64,000 bases of DNA from Nonlabens sp. Ci31 (GTDB lineage Bacteria; Bacteroidota; Bacteroidia; Flavobacteriales; Flavobacteriaceae), in NCBI RefSeq assembly GCF_012974865.1, contig NZ_CP043633.1:1993001-2057000 (forward strand), written 5' to 3'. Below the pieces are notes generated by a model, which saw only the letters and a list, made by a program, of their open reading frames with translations, searched no databases and was not told where the DNA came from. A program made the translations under genes and the position numbers. Positions 2,516-64,000 of this stretch are shown here, piece after piece; position 1 is the first letter of the stretch; each line of letters opens with the position of its first letter.

Positions 2516-2599
2516 TTTAATTTTAATATCGAGTAGTTATTAGATCATTGAAGGATATAGACCTGAATTCATGATACACAACTCACAAAATTTATAAAA

Positions 2600-58865: not shown

Positions 58866-58969
58866 GTTACTAATTTAAGCAATTACACCCGATCCTAAAC
58901 ACTCACTACCGTGATACCATGCGGCGAACTGGCCAGCAGAAATACAGGTGACCCCAATTATCGGTTAAC

Positions 58970-59252
58970 AAACAGTTATACAAAGCTTAAAAAGCTAGAT
59001 GAATGGCTGCGCAACCGTCTGCGATACTGCATCTGGCATCATTGGAAGAAAGCAGACAGGAAACGCAAGAATTTAATATGTTTAGGAATAGAAAAAGGTC
59101 AGGCGTATGCTTGGAGTAGAACCCGAATGGGAGGCTGGGCAGTAGCTCAAAGCCCTATACTAGGTACTACAATCACCCTATCTAGATTAAAACGAAAAGG
59201 CTACAAACCTATGATAGGTTATCTGAATAGAACGCAAACTTCGATTTTTTGA
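58970..59252 (+). pseudogene. ltrA: Group II intron maturase, C-terminal fragment
   Basis: The frame reads KLKKLDEWLRNRLRYCIWHHW, then KRKNLICLGIEKGQAYAWSR and TRMGGWAVAQSPILGTTITL, up to the stop at 59250-59252. This is the thumb/GIIM (domain X) end of the maturase, about 90 residues of the 450-600 usual. The reverse transcriptase domain is absent. The open frame extends to 58911, but residues before SYTKLKK do not look like maturase. Confidence 0.75.
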
Positions 59253-59333
59253 ACCGCCGTATACGAGACCCGTATGTACGGTGGTGTGAGAGGCGCACTG
59301 GCAGTTATTTCACTGTCAGCCGTCTACTCGATT
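58970..59333 (+). mobile_element. 3' fragment of a group II intron (copy A)
   Basis: It contains the C-terminal end of the intron-encoded reverse transcriptase/maturase and then the intron's domain V and VI (59251-59333). Domain V reads GAACCGCCGTATACGAGACC, then CGTATGTACGGTGG. From 59251 to 59335 it is nearly identical to 61692-61795 of copy B. The copies diverge after 59335, so the 3' end is put at CGAT (59333), give or take two bases. The 5' part is missing. Confidence 0.8.
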
Positions 59334-59344
59334 ATGTGCAGGAT

Positions 59345-60736
59345 TTACTTCACGGACTTTAATATATAGTTCGGTATCATTTCGTTTGGCGGTGTACTTT
59401 TACCATACAATTGATAAGAATTATAGTTTCCACCAGTAAATACTGTAATCATATCGAGTTCAGGCCAAATATTAATTTTTTGTCCGCCGTTTCCCGAAGC
59501 TAAATATGAGTTATAAGTTCGTCCGTCAACTATAAAATATTTATGTTCCCAAAGATAGCCGTAATCTCCTTTGTCCATATTAAATGTTTTATCAATCCAA
59601 CTTTTTGATATTATTTGATTTCCATTCCACTTACCACCATCTTTAAATAATTTTGCTAATTTAATCAAGTCTCTTGGTGTAAAATACGTTTGACTAAAAT
59701 CGTCACTACTCGTTTGATTTGGTTCAAAAGTCCATTTGTAGTTTGAAATGTTTAAAGGTTCAAAAAGATTTTCTTTTGCAAAATCCTCAATTTTCTTGTC
59801 TGTTGCTATTTCAACTAAACTGCCTAAAGTCAAAGCGCAACCTGTACAATAAGATGATGATATACCCGGTTCTCCAAAAATTGGTAAATCGAGCGTGTAT
59901 TTTACCCAATCTTTACTTTGCATCATTTTTGATTCATTTCCTTTACTTTCAGGATTATTGTTTTCACAATCCATTCCGTGTCGATACATTAAGAAATTTT
60001 CTATTGTAATTTCTTTTTTTCTTTTGTCTAAATTGGCGATATCTGGATATATAGAATTAAAATAGGGTAGTAGTCCATCTTTTTCACTTTTTATAAATCC
60101 TTGGTCAACCGCTATTCCAAGAATTCCGCCAATGAAAGGTTTTGTGGCAGACCTTAATTGATGTGGTGTATTTTCATCATAACCGTAAAAATATTCCTCA
60201 AGTACTAATTTATTGTTTTTATAAATCAAGATGCTATGTACATCGGGAAAATTACCCTCAATGGTTTCTTTGACCATATCGACTATAAGTTTGGGGTTTT
60301 TGAATTCTTCATCCAAATTGCCTGTTGCAAGTCCGTCATCAGTTTCTGTAGGTTTCTTATACTCGTAATTTTCTGGTTTATCGAAAAGTTCTTTTCTCGG
60401 AAACATATTCGATTTATCAATGTCTTTTGTTAGTAACTTGAATTCTTGACCGTCAGATTTATAGCTAATTACTTTCTTTGAGTTGTCCCTCTCAAAAATC
60501 ACAGAACTTCCTTGCATATCTGTAAAACTGTCTATAGCAATAAATTTCAAAGGATATTTCGCATTATCTATTACTGCATAAAGCGTTGTGTCCATCGCTG
60601 ATGCTTTAAGTTCTAATGTCGTATTATCAACATATTCGTATTTTCCTTCGTAGTCGAAAAGACTTTCGTATTCAGATTTCTCTTTCGTTGACGAACAACC
60701 GATAAGTAAAGGAATTATTAAAAGTATTTTCTTCAT
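59345..60736 (-). CDS. Serine hydrolase (beta-lactamase-like) lipoprotein, cassette-borne
   Basis: The 463-residue product has a lipobox Cys14 in LLIGCSS. Residues about 155-463 are a class C beta-lactamase/PBP4*-like serine hydrolase: nucleophile in SATK (Ser196/Lys199), second motif as SYC in SSYCTGCALTLG and a GNGG-type third motif near residue 415. The N-terminal 140 residues are an extra domain. The target is unknown (a peptide, ester or beta-lactam). It lies between a group II intron fragment at its stop and an attC-like element 57 bases before its start. Confidence 0.82.
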   Translation of the reverse strand: MKKILLIIPLLIGCSSTKEKSEYESLFDYEGKYEYVDNTTLELKASAMDTTLYAVIDNAKYPLKFIAIDSFTDMQGSSVIFERDNSKKVISYKSDGQEFKLLTKDIDKSNMFPRKELFDKPENYEYKKPTETDDGLATGNLDEEFKNPKLIVDMVKETIEGNFPDVHSILIYKNNKLVLEEYFYGYDENTPHQLRSATKPFIGGILGIAVDQGFIKSEKDGLLPYFNSIYPDIANLDKRKKEITIENFLMYRHGMDCENNNPESKGNESKMMQSKDWVKYTLDLPIFGEPGISSSYCTGCALTLGSLVEIATDKKIEDFAKENLFEPLNISNYKWTFEPNQTSSDDFSQTYFTPRDLIKLAKLFKDGGKWNGNQIISKSWIDKTFNMDKGDYGYLWEHKYFIVDGRTYNSYLASGNGGQKINIWPELDMITVFTGGNYNSYQLYGKSTPPNEMIPNYILKSVK

Positions 60737-60792
60737 TTGAATTCTGTTTTTGGATAAGCAGGATTTTTATTCAGCTTGCACATAACGTTGAT

Positions 60793-60902
60793 GTGTATGA
60801 GCCGTTGCGTGTTAAAGCACAAGACATTAAAAGTACAAAACTCCGCTGGAAAATTCCCAAGAATTTTCCAGATAGGCACAGACCCAGCAATGGCTTATAC
60901 AC
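60793..60902. repeat. Palindromic attC-like element E1
   Basis: Left arm GTGTATGAGCCGTTGC (60793-60808) and right arm GCAATGGCTTATACAC (60887-60902) form 16 pairs, two of them G-U. The 78-base loop contains the small hairpin TGGAAAATTC/GAATTTTCCA. AACGTTG precedes the left arm. Group II intron B starts five bases after the right arm. Confidence 0.8.
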
Positions 60903-61105
60903 GGTGTGTGTGCCCAGTATGGGCATCTTTACCTTACTGTAAAGTAAGTTATTAATTTATAGGGTGCAAGACATCAGAAGGGGAACCCTTTATCCCTTTC
61001 TTCGTGGATGCGCTGGAGTAACATCTGGAAGCATTAGTAAGTCGCAAGGGTGGTAATCGTGAGGTTACATCTGAAGAAAGCGAGACTACAAAACTCGGTA
61101 CTGAC

Positions 61106-61123
61106 CCTTCGGCTACGCTCAGG
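61106..61123. repeat. Inserted 18-bp imperfect palindrome CCTTCGGCTACGCTCAGG in intron B
   Basis: The sequence lies in domain I of the intron and is shared with copy C (63887-63904). It is of the short repeat type dispersed in Bacteroidota genomes (from memory). Confidence 0.6.
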
Positions 61124-61702
61124 ATAAACCAAGCAGAAACCGTATACAGAGGCATATTTACTTGGGTAAGCAAGCACATCATTGTAACGCCCTAAGAGTA
61201 CCAAAAGGGTAACAATACACAAAGCACATAGCTTTAAGGTTTTTTTAATCTTTCTTTTCCCCTTTCTCTTCGTTAAAATGTTAAACCGTAGCTACACTAC
61301 GATTGAAAATTTTGCCTTGATAAAGGAAAAAATAAATTCCTAAAAATTCCCGAAAAGCTACATCCATTGAGTATGTGTAGATACGGCAGGAATTGAGTGA
61401 AAGAAGATGCCATTACCTGGAGGACGGAGCGTCAAAAAATGATTTGGTAAATCATTTTAGCGAACGGGCCAGCAGGCGCAGGGGATAACCACGAGTTGGT
61501 ATAATGGAGAAGTCAGCAGAAGTCATAGTACCTACAGGAAACGAGTTGCCATCAGATAGGCATAGGTCTCACCAGTAGGGAAGGACGGAACGTAATTCTC
61601 TTCAAAATTCGCATAGGAGCACAAGTTGTAGCCTATGCTTAAATTAGGGGATAGTATCAAGGGTGAAAAGAGCTTTGGTGTGATGAATTACGAACCGCCG
61701 TA

Positions 61703-61722
61703 CCTGCCTGCCGGCAGGCAGG
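61703..61722. repeat. 20-bp perfect palindrome inserted in domain V of intron B
   Basis: CCTGCCTGCCGGCAGGCAGG stands between GCCGTA and TACGAGAC. In copy A the same two flanks join directly, so the insertion is exact. It would extend one helix of the catalytic domain V. Confidence 0.9.
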
Positions 61723-61833
61723 TACGAGACCCGTATGTACGGTGGTGTGAGAGGCGCACTGGCAGTTATTTCACTGTCAGCCGTCTACTCGATTACCTGG
61801 CAGGCTTTGTTCCACAAACTTGCTAGCGTTGGC

Positions 61834-61898
61834 AAAGACATACTCTTTTACAGTTTTGGTGAAGCGTGGATGGCGTGACTGGAAATGTGTATGGCTTT
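61834..61898. repeat. Divergent palindromic element E4
   Basis: AAAGACATAC (61834-61843) faces GTATGGCTTT (61889-61898) with one mismatch. The element is bounded by the direct repeat GCGTTGGCAA at 61826-61835 and 61901-61910. It lacks the internal hairpin of E1-E3 and has a 45-base loop, so it may be a different class of the same kind of site. Confidence 0.5.
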
Positions 61899-61915
61899 AA
61901 GCGTTGGCAATTCCA

Positions 61916-62113
61916 CTATGTCATTAAATTGTAACTTTCACTTGGCGGAAACAGTAATTCAATCCCTTTCGGCTTAATTTTAAATAATGGACCTTTTTCA
62001 ACAACCTTTCCTTTTGAGTTTCGCTTAATTAAATGGTCAAGCGTAATTATTCCTTGTTCAATTAGTAAGTCAAATTGAGAAGTTATTGGCTTTTTTATAT
62101 TCTCATTATGTTA
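61916..62113 (-). pseudogene. Endonuclease-like C-terminal fragment
   Basis: A frame that overlaps the end of the HEPN/Abi gene reads ENIKKPITSQFDLLIEQGII, TLDHLIKRNSKGKVVEKGPL and FKIKPKGIELLFPPSESYN before the TAG at 61916-61918. The sequence resembles the C-terminal part of MvaI/BcnI-like restriction endonucleases, but this is from memory and uncertain. There is no start codon for it, so it looks like the 3' end of a gene whose 5' part was replaced by the HEPN gene. Confidence 0.45.
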
Positions 62114-62775
62114 TCTACCTTACTTTGAATATTATCAATACTCTCAAAAAATGGAATTATTTCAGGTTCTATCCATTCTATAAGCTGATATAGTTTTGTT
62201 CTTATGTTTAGAACTTCATTGCAATCAATATTATTTCCATTGAAACATAGAGGTTCGCAGTGGTTAACTCTATTTCTAAAATTTCGTATGTCGTCTAATT
62301 TAGAATAAATACTTGCCCTATCTTCTGTAGTTGGTTTATTCACAAATATATGAATTGGTTGACCTGCAATAAGAGAATAGTGGTGTCCAAGAAATAATGC
62401 TATCCAGAAACCAAAAGTTTGGTCAGATATTATTTTTCCACTTGTAATAGGAATTCCTCTTCTTGTCAATTTATCTTCTGTCTTTTGAACAGAACGTTTT
62501 AAGAAAAAGTTTGAATGACGTAATGAGTTGTTTCTCATAAAACCATGTTTTTGATTAATAATCCAATCGGTATCAACATAATGGCTAGAAAGTTGAATAT
62601 TTAAACTATTTCTCAAAACAACTTCAAATTGAGTTAAGATAGGATGTGTGGCTTGTGCTAATCTTATATTAGCATTATATAATCTTTTGGCTCGATTCTT
62701 GTCATTGCCAGTCGCATTCAGATATCTATTATGTCGTGGTCTCGATAAATATTTATTTCTTAATTCATTTCTCAT
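62095..62775 (-). CDS. Abi-like HEPN protein, cassette-borne
   Basis: The 226-residue product matches the Abi family (AbiD/AbiF-like): N-terminal YLSRPRHNRYL and ANIRLAQATHPILTQFEVVLRNSLN, central GFWIALF, and the HEPN RNase motif RxxxxH in RNFRNRVNHCEP (Arg167 and His172). Such proteins act as RNases in abortive infection and toxin systems. No obvious antitoxin is adjacent. The gene lies between attC-like elements E2 and E4, and its 3' end overlaps an endonuclease-like tail in another frame. Confidence 0.78.
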   Translation of the reverse strand: MRNELRNKYLSRPRHNRYLNATGNDKNRAKRLYNANIRLAQATHPILTQFEVVLRNSLNIQLSSHYVDTDWIINQKHGFMRNNSLRHSNFFLKRSVQKTEDKLTRRGIPITSGKIISDQTFGFWIALFLGHHYSLIAGQPIHIFVNKPTTEDRASIYSKLDDIRNFRNRVNHCEPLCFNGNNIDCNEVLNIRTKLYQLIEWIEPEIIPFFESIDNIQSKVDNIMRI

Positions 62776-62928
62776 ATATTGTGTAATATCGGAAATTTAT
62801 TTGTATATTTGTTTCATACAGACTTGTTAAAGCCTCTTCCTTTATTGGAACGTAATCAAGTAGAAGATTTAAAAAGGAATTCTTAATTGAGTTCCTTTTT
62901 TTGTTTTCAGCTTGTTGCTAACGTTGTT

Positions 62929-63040
62929 GTGTATGGTTAGTTGCGTGGTTAAGCAACTAATTTAGTAAACAAATACTTGCCAGAGAAAATTCCGAAGGAA
63001 TTTTCCAAATAAGCACTTGCCAAAGCAATTAATTATACAT
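62929..63040. repeat. Palindromic attC-like element E2
   Basis: GTGTATGGTTAGTTGC (62929-62944) pairs with GCAATTAATTATACAT (63025-63040) at all 16 positions, four of them G-U. The loop is 80 bases and has the hairpins TTAGTTGC/GCAACTAA and GAAAATTCC/GGAATTTTC. GCTAACGTTG precedes the left arm. It carries no intron and is the empty site. Confidence 0.85.
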
Positions 63041-63058
63041 GGTGTTGTGGTGTTGTTT

Positions 63059-63526
63059 TTATTTTCCATCCCAGTTTTTCATTTCAGTTTGATATTTTTC
63101 TCTATCGGTCGAGTGGATTCCGAATATTGTAATTCCGCTGTCAAATATTTTAACGTCAAATTCACGTTTTATTAAATATCGGTCATCCAAATCATTTGAC
63201 AGATAAACAAATCCAAAAAATAAAACTCCGAATCCTATCCAAAATATTTTGGCTATTCGTTTCGGAATATTGATTTTCCAAATTCGGTTTATAAACAATG
63301 TTATAATTAACCAAAACACAAAATAAGTCAACAAATTAATTATCATTTCAGTCAGAAAATATTGAGTTGACAAAGATGTGTGGAATCCTTCGCATTTATA
63401 AATCATCGGAAATCCATAAAAGAAAACATCCTTTGCGTCAATTGCTATTCCGTACGACCATTTTGTTATAATTCCGAAAGAAATTAAAGTCAAAGGTAGA
63501 GTCAATCGCAATATTAATTTTTTCAT
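63059..63526 (-). CDS. Small membrane protein, cassette-borne
   Basis: I do not recognise a family. The 155-residue protein has three hydrophobic segments: one near the N-terminus (about 7-24) that may be a signal anchor, one at about 60-80 and one at about 91-108. A soluble tail with DLDDRYLIKREFDVKIFDSG follows. Its stop is 18 bases from the right arm of E2, and its start is 45 bases from E3, as expected for a one-gene cassette. Confidence 0.7.
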   Translation of the reverse strand: MKKLILRLTLPLTLISFGIITKWSYGIAIDAKDVFFYGFPMIYKCEGFHTSLSTQYFLTEMIINLLTYFVFWLIITLFINRIWKINIPKRIAKIFWIGFGVLFFGFVYLSNDLDDRYLIKREFDVKIFDSGITIFGIHSTDREKYQTEMKNWDGK

Positions 63527-63571
63527 TTATTCAATTCAAAAGTGTGAGTGGTAAATGCACCACAACGTGAT

Positions 63572-63683
63572 GTGTATGGTTAGTTGCGTGGTTAAGCAAC
63601 TAATTTAGTAAACAAATACGGACTAGAGAAAATTCCAGCGGAATTTTCCAGATAAGCACTTGCCAAAGCAATAAATTATACAC
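63572..63683. repeat. Palindromic attC-like element E3
   Basis: GTGTATGGTTAGTTGC (63572-63587) pairs with GCAATAAATTATACAC (63668-63683) with one A-A mismatch. The 80-base loop carries the same internal hairpins as E2. Intron C starts five bases after the right arm, as for E1 and intron B. Confidence 0.85.
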
Positions 63684-63688
63684 GGTGT

Positions 63689-64000
63689 GTGTGCCCAGTA
63701 TGGGCATCTTTACCTTACAGTAAAGTAAGTTATTAATTTATAGGGTGCAAGACATCAGAAAGGGAACCCTTTATCCCTTTCTTCGTGGATGCGCTGGAGT
63801 AACATTTGGAAGCATTAGTAAGTCGCAAGGGTGGTAATCGTGAGGTTACATCTGAAGAAAGCGAGACTACAAAACTCGGTACTGACCCTTCGGCTACGCT
63901 CAGGATAAACCAAGCAGAAACCGTATACAGAGGCATATTTACTTGGGTAAGCAAGCACATCATTGTAACGCCCTAAGAGTACCAAAAGGGTAACAATACA
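63689..64000 (+). mobile_element. Group II intron copy C, 5' part, cut by the window end
   Basis: The first 312 bases match copy B (60908-61219) almost exactly; I noted three substitutions. It begins at the same GTGTGCCC after GGTGT in element E3. Its maturase and 3' end would lie outside the window. Confidence 0.8.
63887..63904. repeat. CCTTCGGCTACGCTCAGG in intron C
   Basis: The same 18-bp sequence at the same place as in intron B, so it was present before the introns spread. Confidence 0.6.

Follow-up and report, generated by a model that had tools for sequence, protein, structure and literature searches.

The 64,000-nucleotide stretch of Nonlabens sp. Ci31 analysed here (NZ_CP043633.1, positions 1,993,001-2,057,000; hereafter the window) carries three attC-like palindromes, E1 to E3, that very probably serve mobile gene cassettes as recombination sites, within an integron-like system that has a tyrosine recombinase of its own. 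E1 to E3 are outlying members of a set of about 60 such sites in the genome. From the sequence comparisons, the system appears to share the construction of an integron and, most probably, its mode of action as well. It is called integron-like rather than a classical integron because the recombinase lacks the IntI domain and because wobble pairs stand in place of extrahelical bases. An integron-like cassette array had been proposed in the initial annotation, which was made from the window sequence. That proposal is now supported beyond the window, with three qualifications: the recombinase is not of the IntI type, wobbles replace the extrahelical bases, and one of the three window units fails the own-start test described below. 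The arm coordinates given for E1 to E3 were all found again in the sequence.

60793-60902, minus strand: attC-like site E1, arms 60793-60808 and 60887-60902, inner hairpin in the loop
60786-60784, minus strand: GTT starting the next cassette at E1, from the own-start analysis
L031:8770-8924: covariance-model match of E1
62929-63040, minus strand: attC-like site E2, arms 62929-62944 and 63025-63040
63052-63044, minus strand: uninterrupted R'' of E2, CACCACAAC
62922-62920, minus strand: GTT of E2
63572-63683, minus strand: attC-like site E3, arms 63572-63587 and 63668-63683
63566-63564, minus strand: GTT of E3, whose R'' is interrupted by a group II intron

The three sites share a mean column identity of 83% in a three-way alignment. 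The arms of E1 and E2 had been described as different in sequence with every pair kept; they do diverge and pairing is retained on the plus strand, with some of the pairs being only G.T. When folded with RNA parameters the plus strand formed the outer stem, with z-scores of -6.1 (E1), -2.2 (E2) and -2.6 (E3). Folding of a single copy is weak evidence, and the case is carried by comparisons among copies.

A DNA query with E2 matched 23 places in the one-contig 3.74-Mb genome (E<=0.01, E2 and E3 included). Sixteen of these lay on one strand within 3147672-3227970, three fell in or next to the window (E2, E3 and one immediately beyond it), and the others were solitary or in small groups. We aligned 22 of the 23 matches together with E1 and built a covariance model from these 23 copies. 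At E<0.01 it returned 61 rows, corresponding to 60 sites (one was split across two loci), in 13 stretches of this genome totalling 232 kb. A covariance search of this kind had been suggested in the initial annotation, and it revealed many further sites at cassette boundaries, with each cluster strand-uniform. The main array is strand-uniform over about 82 kb and holds 44 of the 49 listed model matches within 3145823-3227987, one of which (3205154) reaches E 0.13 only. A structural finder designed on the Nonlabens sites, which takes AAC, a 16-bp ungapped stem and GTT, detected 36 sites on one strand and 1 on the other over 140 kb, and 1, 0 and 0 in shuffled sequence. The AAC and GTT cores are imposed by this finder. 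Among 200 sites a C precedes GTT in 98% and a purine follows in 97%, neither of which is imposed. The sites show the R''/R' and L''/L' layout with an unpaired spacer and follow the full consensus RYYYAAC/GTTRRRY only in part.

A PF00589 search listed three tyrosine recombinases in the Nonlabens genome. None is inside the window, in line with the earlier statement that no integrase lies there. Two are full-length matches to the XerD model, one of them above the curated cut-off. The third (3143983-3145065) lies directly upstream of the main array, on the same strand as most of the cassette genes. The window cluster (genome 2053.8-2060.8 kb) is 1.09 Mb from this recombinase. A six-site strand-uniform cluster was also present at 1290592-1300339 (L033, L034), where PF00589 lists no recombinase.

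Homologues of the array recombinase were found at E<=1e-60 in 60 of 149 genomes of the family and in 74 of 395 genomes of the phylum. In 42 named loci, 37 sites were found downstream on the recombinase strand, with none downstream on the other strand and none upstream in 315 kb. Another set of 40 loci had 124 downstream sites in the orientation of the recombinase and 0 in the opposite one. We then pooled 97 loci, which include 57 of the 70 listed family places (our own included), are not all from different genomes, and leave out two of the 42 named loci, L101 (its contig equals one of G003 in length) and L127 (31% identity). Over the 865 kb downstream of these recombinase homologues, the strict finder gave 239 sites on the recombinase strand versus 2 on the other, and a looser symmetric finder gave 268 versus 19. 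Where at least 5 kb was available downstream of the recombinase, a site was present in 34 of 46 loci. In five genomes of one or two contigs (G113, G014, G068, G087 and G024), whose recombinases are 33-37% identical to the query, the gap between array and recombinase was 1.1-9.0 kb in the expected orientation among the matches listed. At E<=1e-6 the covariance model matched 104 of 120 family genomes and 103 of 119 genera (own included). A candidate attI is also present. In 34 of 45 loci the candidate GTT of the first cassette follows the recombinase end (or that of its match) by 44-141 bases, and in the other 11 the distance is at least 664 bases; by eye, inverted repeats precede this GTT.

In integrons, the R' of a cassette's own site comes from the start of that cassette. 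We therefore compared cassette starts with the R'' at the end of the same cassette. In the Nonlabens array, start and own R'' were complementary at 7/7 positions in 24 of 36 consecutive pairs, at 6/7 in 6 and at 5/7 in 1. Within one site, R'' and the next start matched at a mean of only 2.86 positions (37 sites), compared with 2.56 for all other pairs (1296 pairs). With the looser finder, the observed sum over 38 pairs was 215; the best permuted sum was 136, and none of 20000 permutations reached the observed value. Over the 97 loci, at least 5/7 was found in 147 of 205 pairs. A threshold of at least 6/7 was passed by 140 of 205 own pairs, compared with 12 of the 268 in-situ pairs and 104 of the 2776 other pairs. 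Complementarity between a cassette start and the R'' at its own end is predicted by a model in which the site is restored when the cassette forms a circle. The 147 pairs with own-start matches of at least 5/7 were used below as the set of confirmed cassettes.

The stems carry wobbles at fixed positions. In a symmetric scoring of 268 stems, 611 mismatched cells form G.T when the strand opposite the genes is read, as against 38 when the gene strand is read. Counted after AAC, G.T occupied position 10 in 223, position 15 in 246 and position 11 in 61 of the 268 stems, and the remaining stem positions from 4 to 20 were Watson-Crick in at least 88%. Between the two R boxes of a confirmed cassette, read across the whole gene, 127 of 147 cassettes had such a wobble at position 11 and 1 had a Watson-Crick pair there, and positions 12-14 paired again in 130, 133 and 116 of 147. 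The set is defined by matches of at least 5/7, which in part dictates the R-box counts for positions 4-10 but leaves those from position 11 onward free. In 252 of the 268 stems the calculated energy was more favourable for the strand opposite the genes. Canonical attC sites are described in PMC2727003 and PMC3053210 as carrying extrahelical bases and an unpaired central spacer. Extrahelical bases were not seen here, where the stems are 16-bp and ungapped with wobbles; the finder takes ungapped stems only, so bulged sites would escape detection. A shortened site of 66 bp is present in two copies downstream of the recombinase at L168, and its wobbles keep to the same two places.

Cassettes were found in more than one context. 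At L083, cassettes of 436 and 422 bp are each 100% identical at two places with different neighbours. This fits the cassette variation that had been named as a check in the initial annotation, with identity breaking at the G^TT boundary as expected for mobile cassettes. The identity begins 1 or 3 bases before GTT and continues into the next start for 3 or 6 bases, and the exchange point is therefore resolved only to a few bases. In Galbibacter orientalis (L096) a 454-bp cassette is present in four copies that are pairwise 93.6-96.0% identical. The longest open reading frame (ORF) is on the array strand in 126 of the 147 confirmed cassettes and on the opposite strand in 8, and 13 have none of at least 60 aa. 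Median spacing is 31 bases from GTT to the start codon and 12 bases from the stop to AAC. Of 20 cassette-region proteins, 11 had no Pfam match. Those with a match include two beta-lactamase-family proteins, two restriction-modification enzymes, a HigB-like toxin with an HTH/M78 neighbour, an Imm11 immunity protein and a secretion-sorting-domain protein, and PADLOC matched 4 of 10 scanned cassette proteins.

Related sequences were also observed on plasmids. Tenacibaculum finnmarkense plasmids L270 (CP116298.1) and CP116296.1 have sites by DNA similarity, two of which were confirmed by the finder in L270. The Chryseobacterium sp. SNU WT5 plasmid L268 carries a recombinase annotated 'site-specific tyrosine recombinase/integron integrase' with sites behind it; three of these are 140-bp units with another stem. 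An Acinetobacter indicus plasmid (L267:6028-8210, NZ_CP041297.1) carries a shortened recombinase relative, 51.8% identical over query residues 133-358, directly upstream of tet(X3). Between the two lie a GTT and an inverted repeat that is followed by GTTATGTGCC. The finder saw no site 3' of tet(X3) on this plasmid, and the own-start test yielded no candidate there. A contribution of the system to the history of tet(X) is possible, and we mention this as a lead only.

The window itself contains the following cassettes and introns.

63044-63566, minus strand: cassette body from the E3 GTT to the E2 R'', with ORF 63059-63526 (155 aa, no Pfam match)
59333-60786, minus strand: cassette body from the E1 GTT, with ORF 59345-60736 (PF00144, beta-lactamase family)
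61794-62922, minus strand: stretch from the E2 GTT to an intron flank, with ORF 62095-62775 (226 aa)
60908-61793, plus strand: group II intron, GTGTGCCC...CTACTCGAT, in the R'' of E1 (GTGT^TA), opposite the genes
63689-64000, plus strand: group II intron interrupting the R'' of E3 and extending beyond the window to its 3' end at genome position 2057570
58911-59332, plus strand: 3' remnant of a group II intron with ORF 58911-59252; the intron end CTACTCGAT is at 59332

All three cassette ORFs are on the minus strand, and 18 bases separate the E2 arm from the stop of ORF 63059-63526, both as previously noted. The units with ORF 63059-63526 and ORF 59345-60736 pass the own-start test. In the former, the start GTTGTGGTG is complementary to R'' CACCACAAC at 9/9 positions; in the latter, the start GTTATGTGCA pairs with the R'' remnant TGCACATA (59340-59333) at each of the 8 bases that remain (both pairings by eye). 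This R'' remnant adjoins the truncated intron, and the site of cassette 59333-60786 was not found past the intron remnant. ORF 62095-62775 has a weak PADLOC match to PD-T4-5. The intron at 60908-61793 has no ORF the size of a reverse transcriptase (RT), and ORF 58911-59252 was read by eye as an RT C-terminus. Outside the cassette region, an S4-Flavobacteria ribosomal protein leader (Rfam RF03141) was seen at window position 2543-2577.

Nine starts of group II introns (Rfam matches RF01998 and RF02001) were read, five in the main array and four in the 2.05-2.06 Mb region. Eight of the nine are inside an R'' box on the strand opposite the genes, with upstream flanks TTGT (3), GTGT (4) and TTGC (1); the ninth is at 2060839, and the sequence preceding it is outside the site survey. 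At four of five 3' ends the flank completes an R'' that matches its own cassette start, for example GTTAGCACC with GGTGC at 3160622. Group IIC-attC introns insert at TTGT/T in the same box and orientation (PMC7923331). The introns seen here resemble them in their insertion into R'' opposite the genes, antisense to the cassettes; they differ in that the host sites are of a new type, and the likeness is one of insertion site.

The recombinase is not of the IntI type that had been expected in the initial annotation, although a tyrosine recombinase does adjoin the main array. An ordinary integron with a classical, if divergent, IntI would account for the attC-like R and L boxes, the attI and the cassettes, and the integron integrase model TIGR02249 is indeed the second NCBIfam match of the recombinase (182.6 bits). 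The best match is the archaeal XerA model NF040815 (190.3 bits), and both scores are below their cut-offs, that of TIGR02249 being 265. In addition, TIGR02249 positions 183-241, which represent the IntI insertion, are unmatched. This IntI-specific additional domain (patch III region) is given as a defining IntI character in PMC9668308. In trees grouping IntI, Xer and flavobacterial-type rows (rows below 250 aa were dropped in the first tree), the careful tree placed the 16 IntI rows in one clade (100/100) with the flavobacterial rows outside it. Xer formed one group (100/99), and the 52 flavobacterial-type rows came together at only 88/65, with a long-branch warning. The first tree gave a support of 99 to all non-Xer rows, which is uninformative on the nearest kin of IntI because it is the same split as the unity of Xer. 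True IntI (TIGR02249 at its cut-off) was found in 0 of 199 Flavobacteriaceae genomes, in a search in which the control genomes were silent too, yet TIGR02249 reached its cut-off in 84 of 296 phylum genomes, which serve as a positive control. Moreover, 20 true-IntI loci (323 kb, both strands) gave 9 finder hits, none with the wobble pattern. We consider a classical IntI unlikely on these grounds. The recombinase also has an N-terminal part of its own, roughly 80-100 residues, for which Pfam and PDB sequence searches gave nothing convincing; it may be a HARP-like fork/ssDNA-binding domain.

Two other explanations fit the data still less well. That the cassettes are moved by Xer-type hijacking, as in phage CTXphi, or by another enzyme, with the neighbouring recombinase incidental, would be compatible with the two Xer-like proteins in the genome and with arrays that have no such recombinase nearby. 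It is very unlikely given that the recombinase heads the array in the same orientation in many genera, with the first-cassette GTT so close behind it in most loci that have a candidate. The palindromes might instead be terminators, repetitive extragenic palindrome (REP)-like repeats or transposon remnants between genes, as their intergenic position, the nearby stops and the isolation of some copies could suggest. Terminators and REP elements do not predict strand uniformity, complementarity of start and end across a gene, relocated identical cassettes or placement beside one recombinase family, and we give this explanation almost no credence.

Several observations nonetheless weigh against E1 to E3 being sites of an integron-like system. 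The minus strands of E1, E2 and E3 fold too (z -2.8, -3.2 and -3.6), in E2 and E3 mainly from the inner hairpins, and z-scores alone therefore cannot pick the strand. With DNA parameters, the outer stem was in the best plus-strand fold of E1 only and was absent for E2 and E3. Own-start scores below 5/7 were obtained in 5 of the 36 array pairs (all 2/7 or less) and in 58 of the 205 pairs over all loci, in part because intervening sites were missed. In the window, 61794-62922 fails the test (GTTAGCAACA against the R'' remnant CCTGCCAGGTA), and at the 3' end of the intron at 61793 the flank does not complete R''. The connection between recombinase and sites is drawn from proximity and orientation. 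Three model matches (3136310, 3137000 and 3140453; L024, L025) are upstream of the recombinase on the array strand. Twelve of the 46 loci for which 5 kb or more was available behind a homologous recombinase yielded no site. The siteless loci are L074, L165, L169, L175, L182, L183, L191, L192, L197, L198, L200 and L125, and it is possible that these recombinases use another site type or have another role. Conversely, G059 and G071 have sites and no such recombinase near them at E<=1e-25; the one 33% recombinase match in G071 is far from the listed sites. No homologous recombinase was found near the second clusters of G014 (2.215-2.261 Mb) and G113 (1.875-1.888 Mb).

An integron-like mechanism can be proposed as follows. 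The strand opposite the genes would become single-stranded during replication or DNA uptake and then fold, R'' pairing with R' and L'' with L' over a short unpaired spacer. The G.T wobbles at fixed positions would stabilise this strand over the gene strand. The recombinase would act directly on the hairpin, exchanging strands at or next to G^TT with a second partner, either the attI that closely follows the recombinase gene or a further cassette site. Cassettes, each consisting of GTT, one gene and a site, would in this way be captured, excised as circles and reshuffled.

The system shares with integrons its mostly single-gene cassettes on one strand and a recombinase with an attI-like site at the array head. 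Also shared are the R''/L''/L'/R' boxes with AAC...GTT, a C before GTT and an R-box complementarity of some 10 bases or more, as well as the unpaired spacer, variable loop, GTT boundary and favoured folding of the opposite strand. It differs in a recombinase that has its own N-terminal part and no IntI-specific domain, in fixed G.T wobbles where extrahelical bases were not seen, and in the direction of the recombinase, which here reads toward the array, whereas in integrons the integrase and array are usually divergent. The window cluster resembles clusters of attC sites lacking integron integrases (CALIN) in having sites and no nearby recombinase; the sites are however not canonical attC, and a full recombinase-array lies elsewhere on the same chromosome. 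With XerC/XerD the recombinase shares the tyrosine recombinase catalytic motifs (by eye) and the lack of an IntI insertion, but it is separate in the tree, has the extra N-terminal part and adjoins cassette arrays.

No description of the system was found in the open-licence literature searched, which includes no preprints and few subscription journals. According to PMC9024848, only integrase genes without cassettes were previously known in Bacteroidetes, to which one complete integron, from Salinibacter ruber, was added; Bacteroidota are among the phyla with integrons in PMC8618304. Gain of the I2-like domain has been proposed as the step that opened single-strand recombination (PMC4792948). 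We think it probable that the present system is a second integron lineage that does not derive from IntI and has its sites in most of the sampled Flavobacteriaceae genera and its recombinases dispersed across Bacteroidota. A fixed G.T-wobble code would then read folded single strands without the IntI-specific domain, and the lineage would be either an independent invention of single-strand cassette recombination or a survivor of the stage that gave rise to IntI integrons. Relative to IntI it may be sister, ancestral or convergent.

With a cassette recombinase that has no I2-like domain, the origin of integrons would become directly testable. The cargo includes restriction-modification, defence-related, toxin-antitoxin, immunity and beta-lactamase-family genes. 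If this interpretation is true, Flavobacteriaceae carry integron-like arrays on the scale of superintegrons, and tools that seek IntI may miss them.

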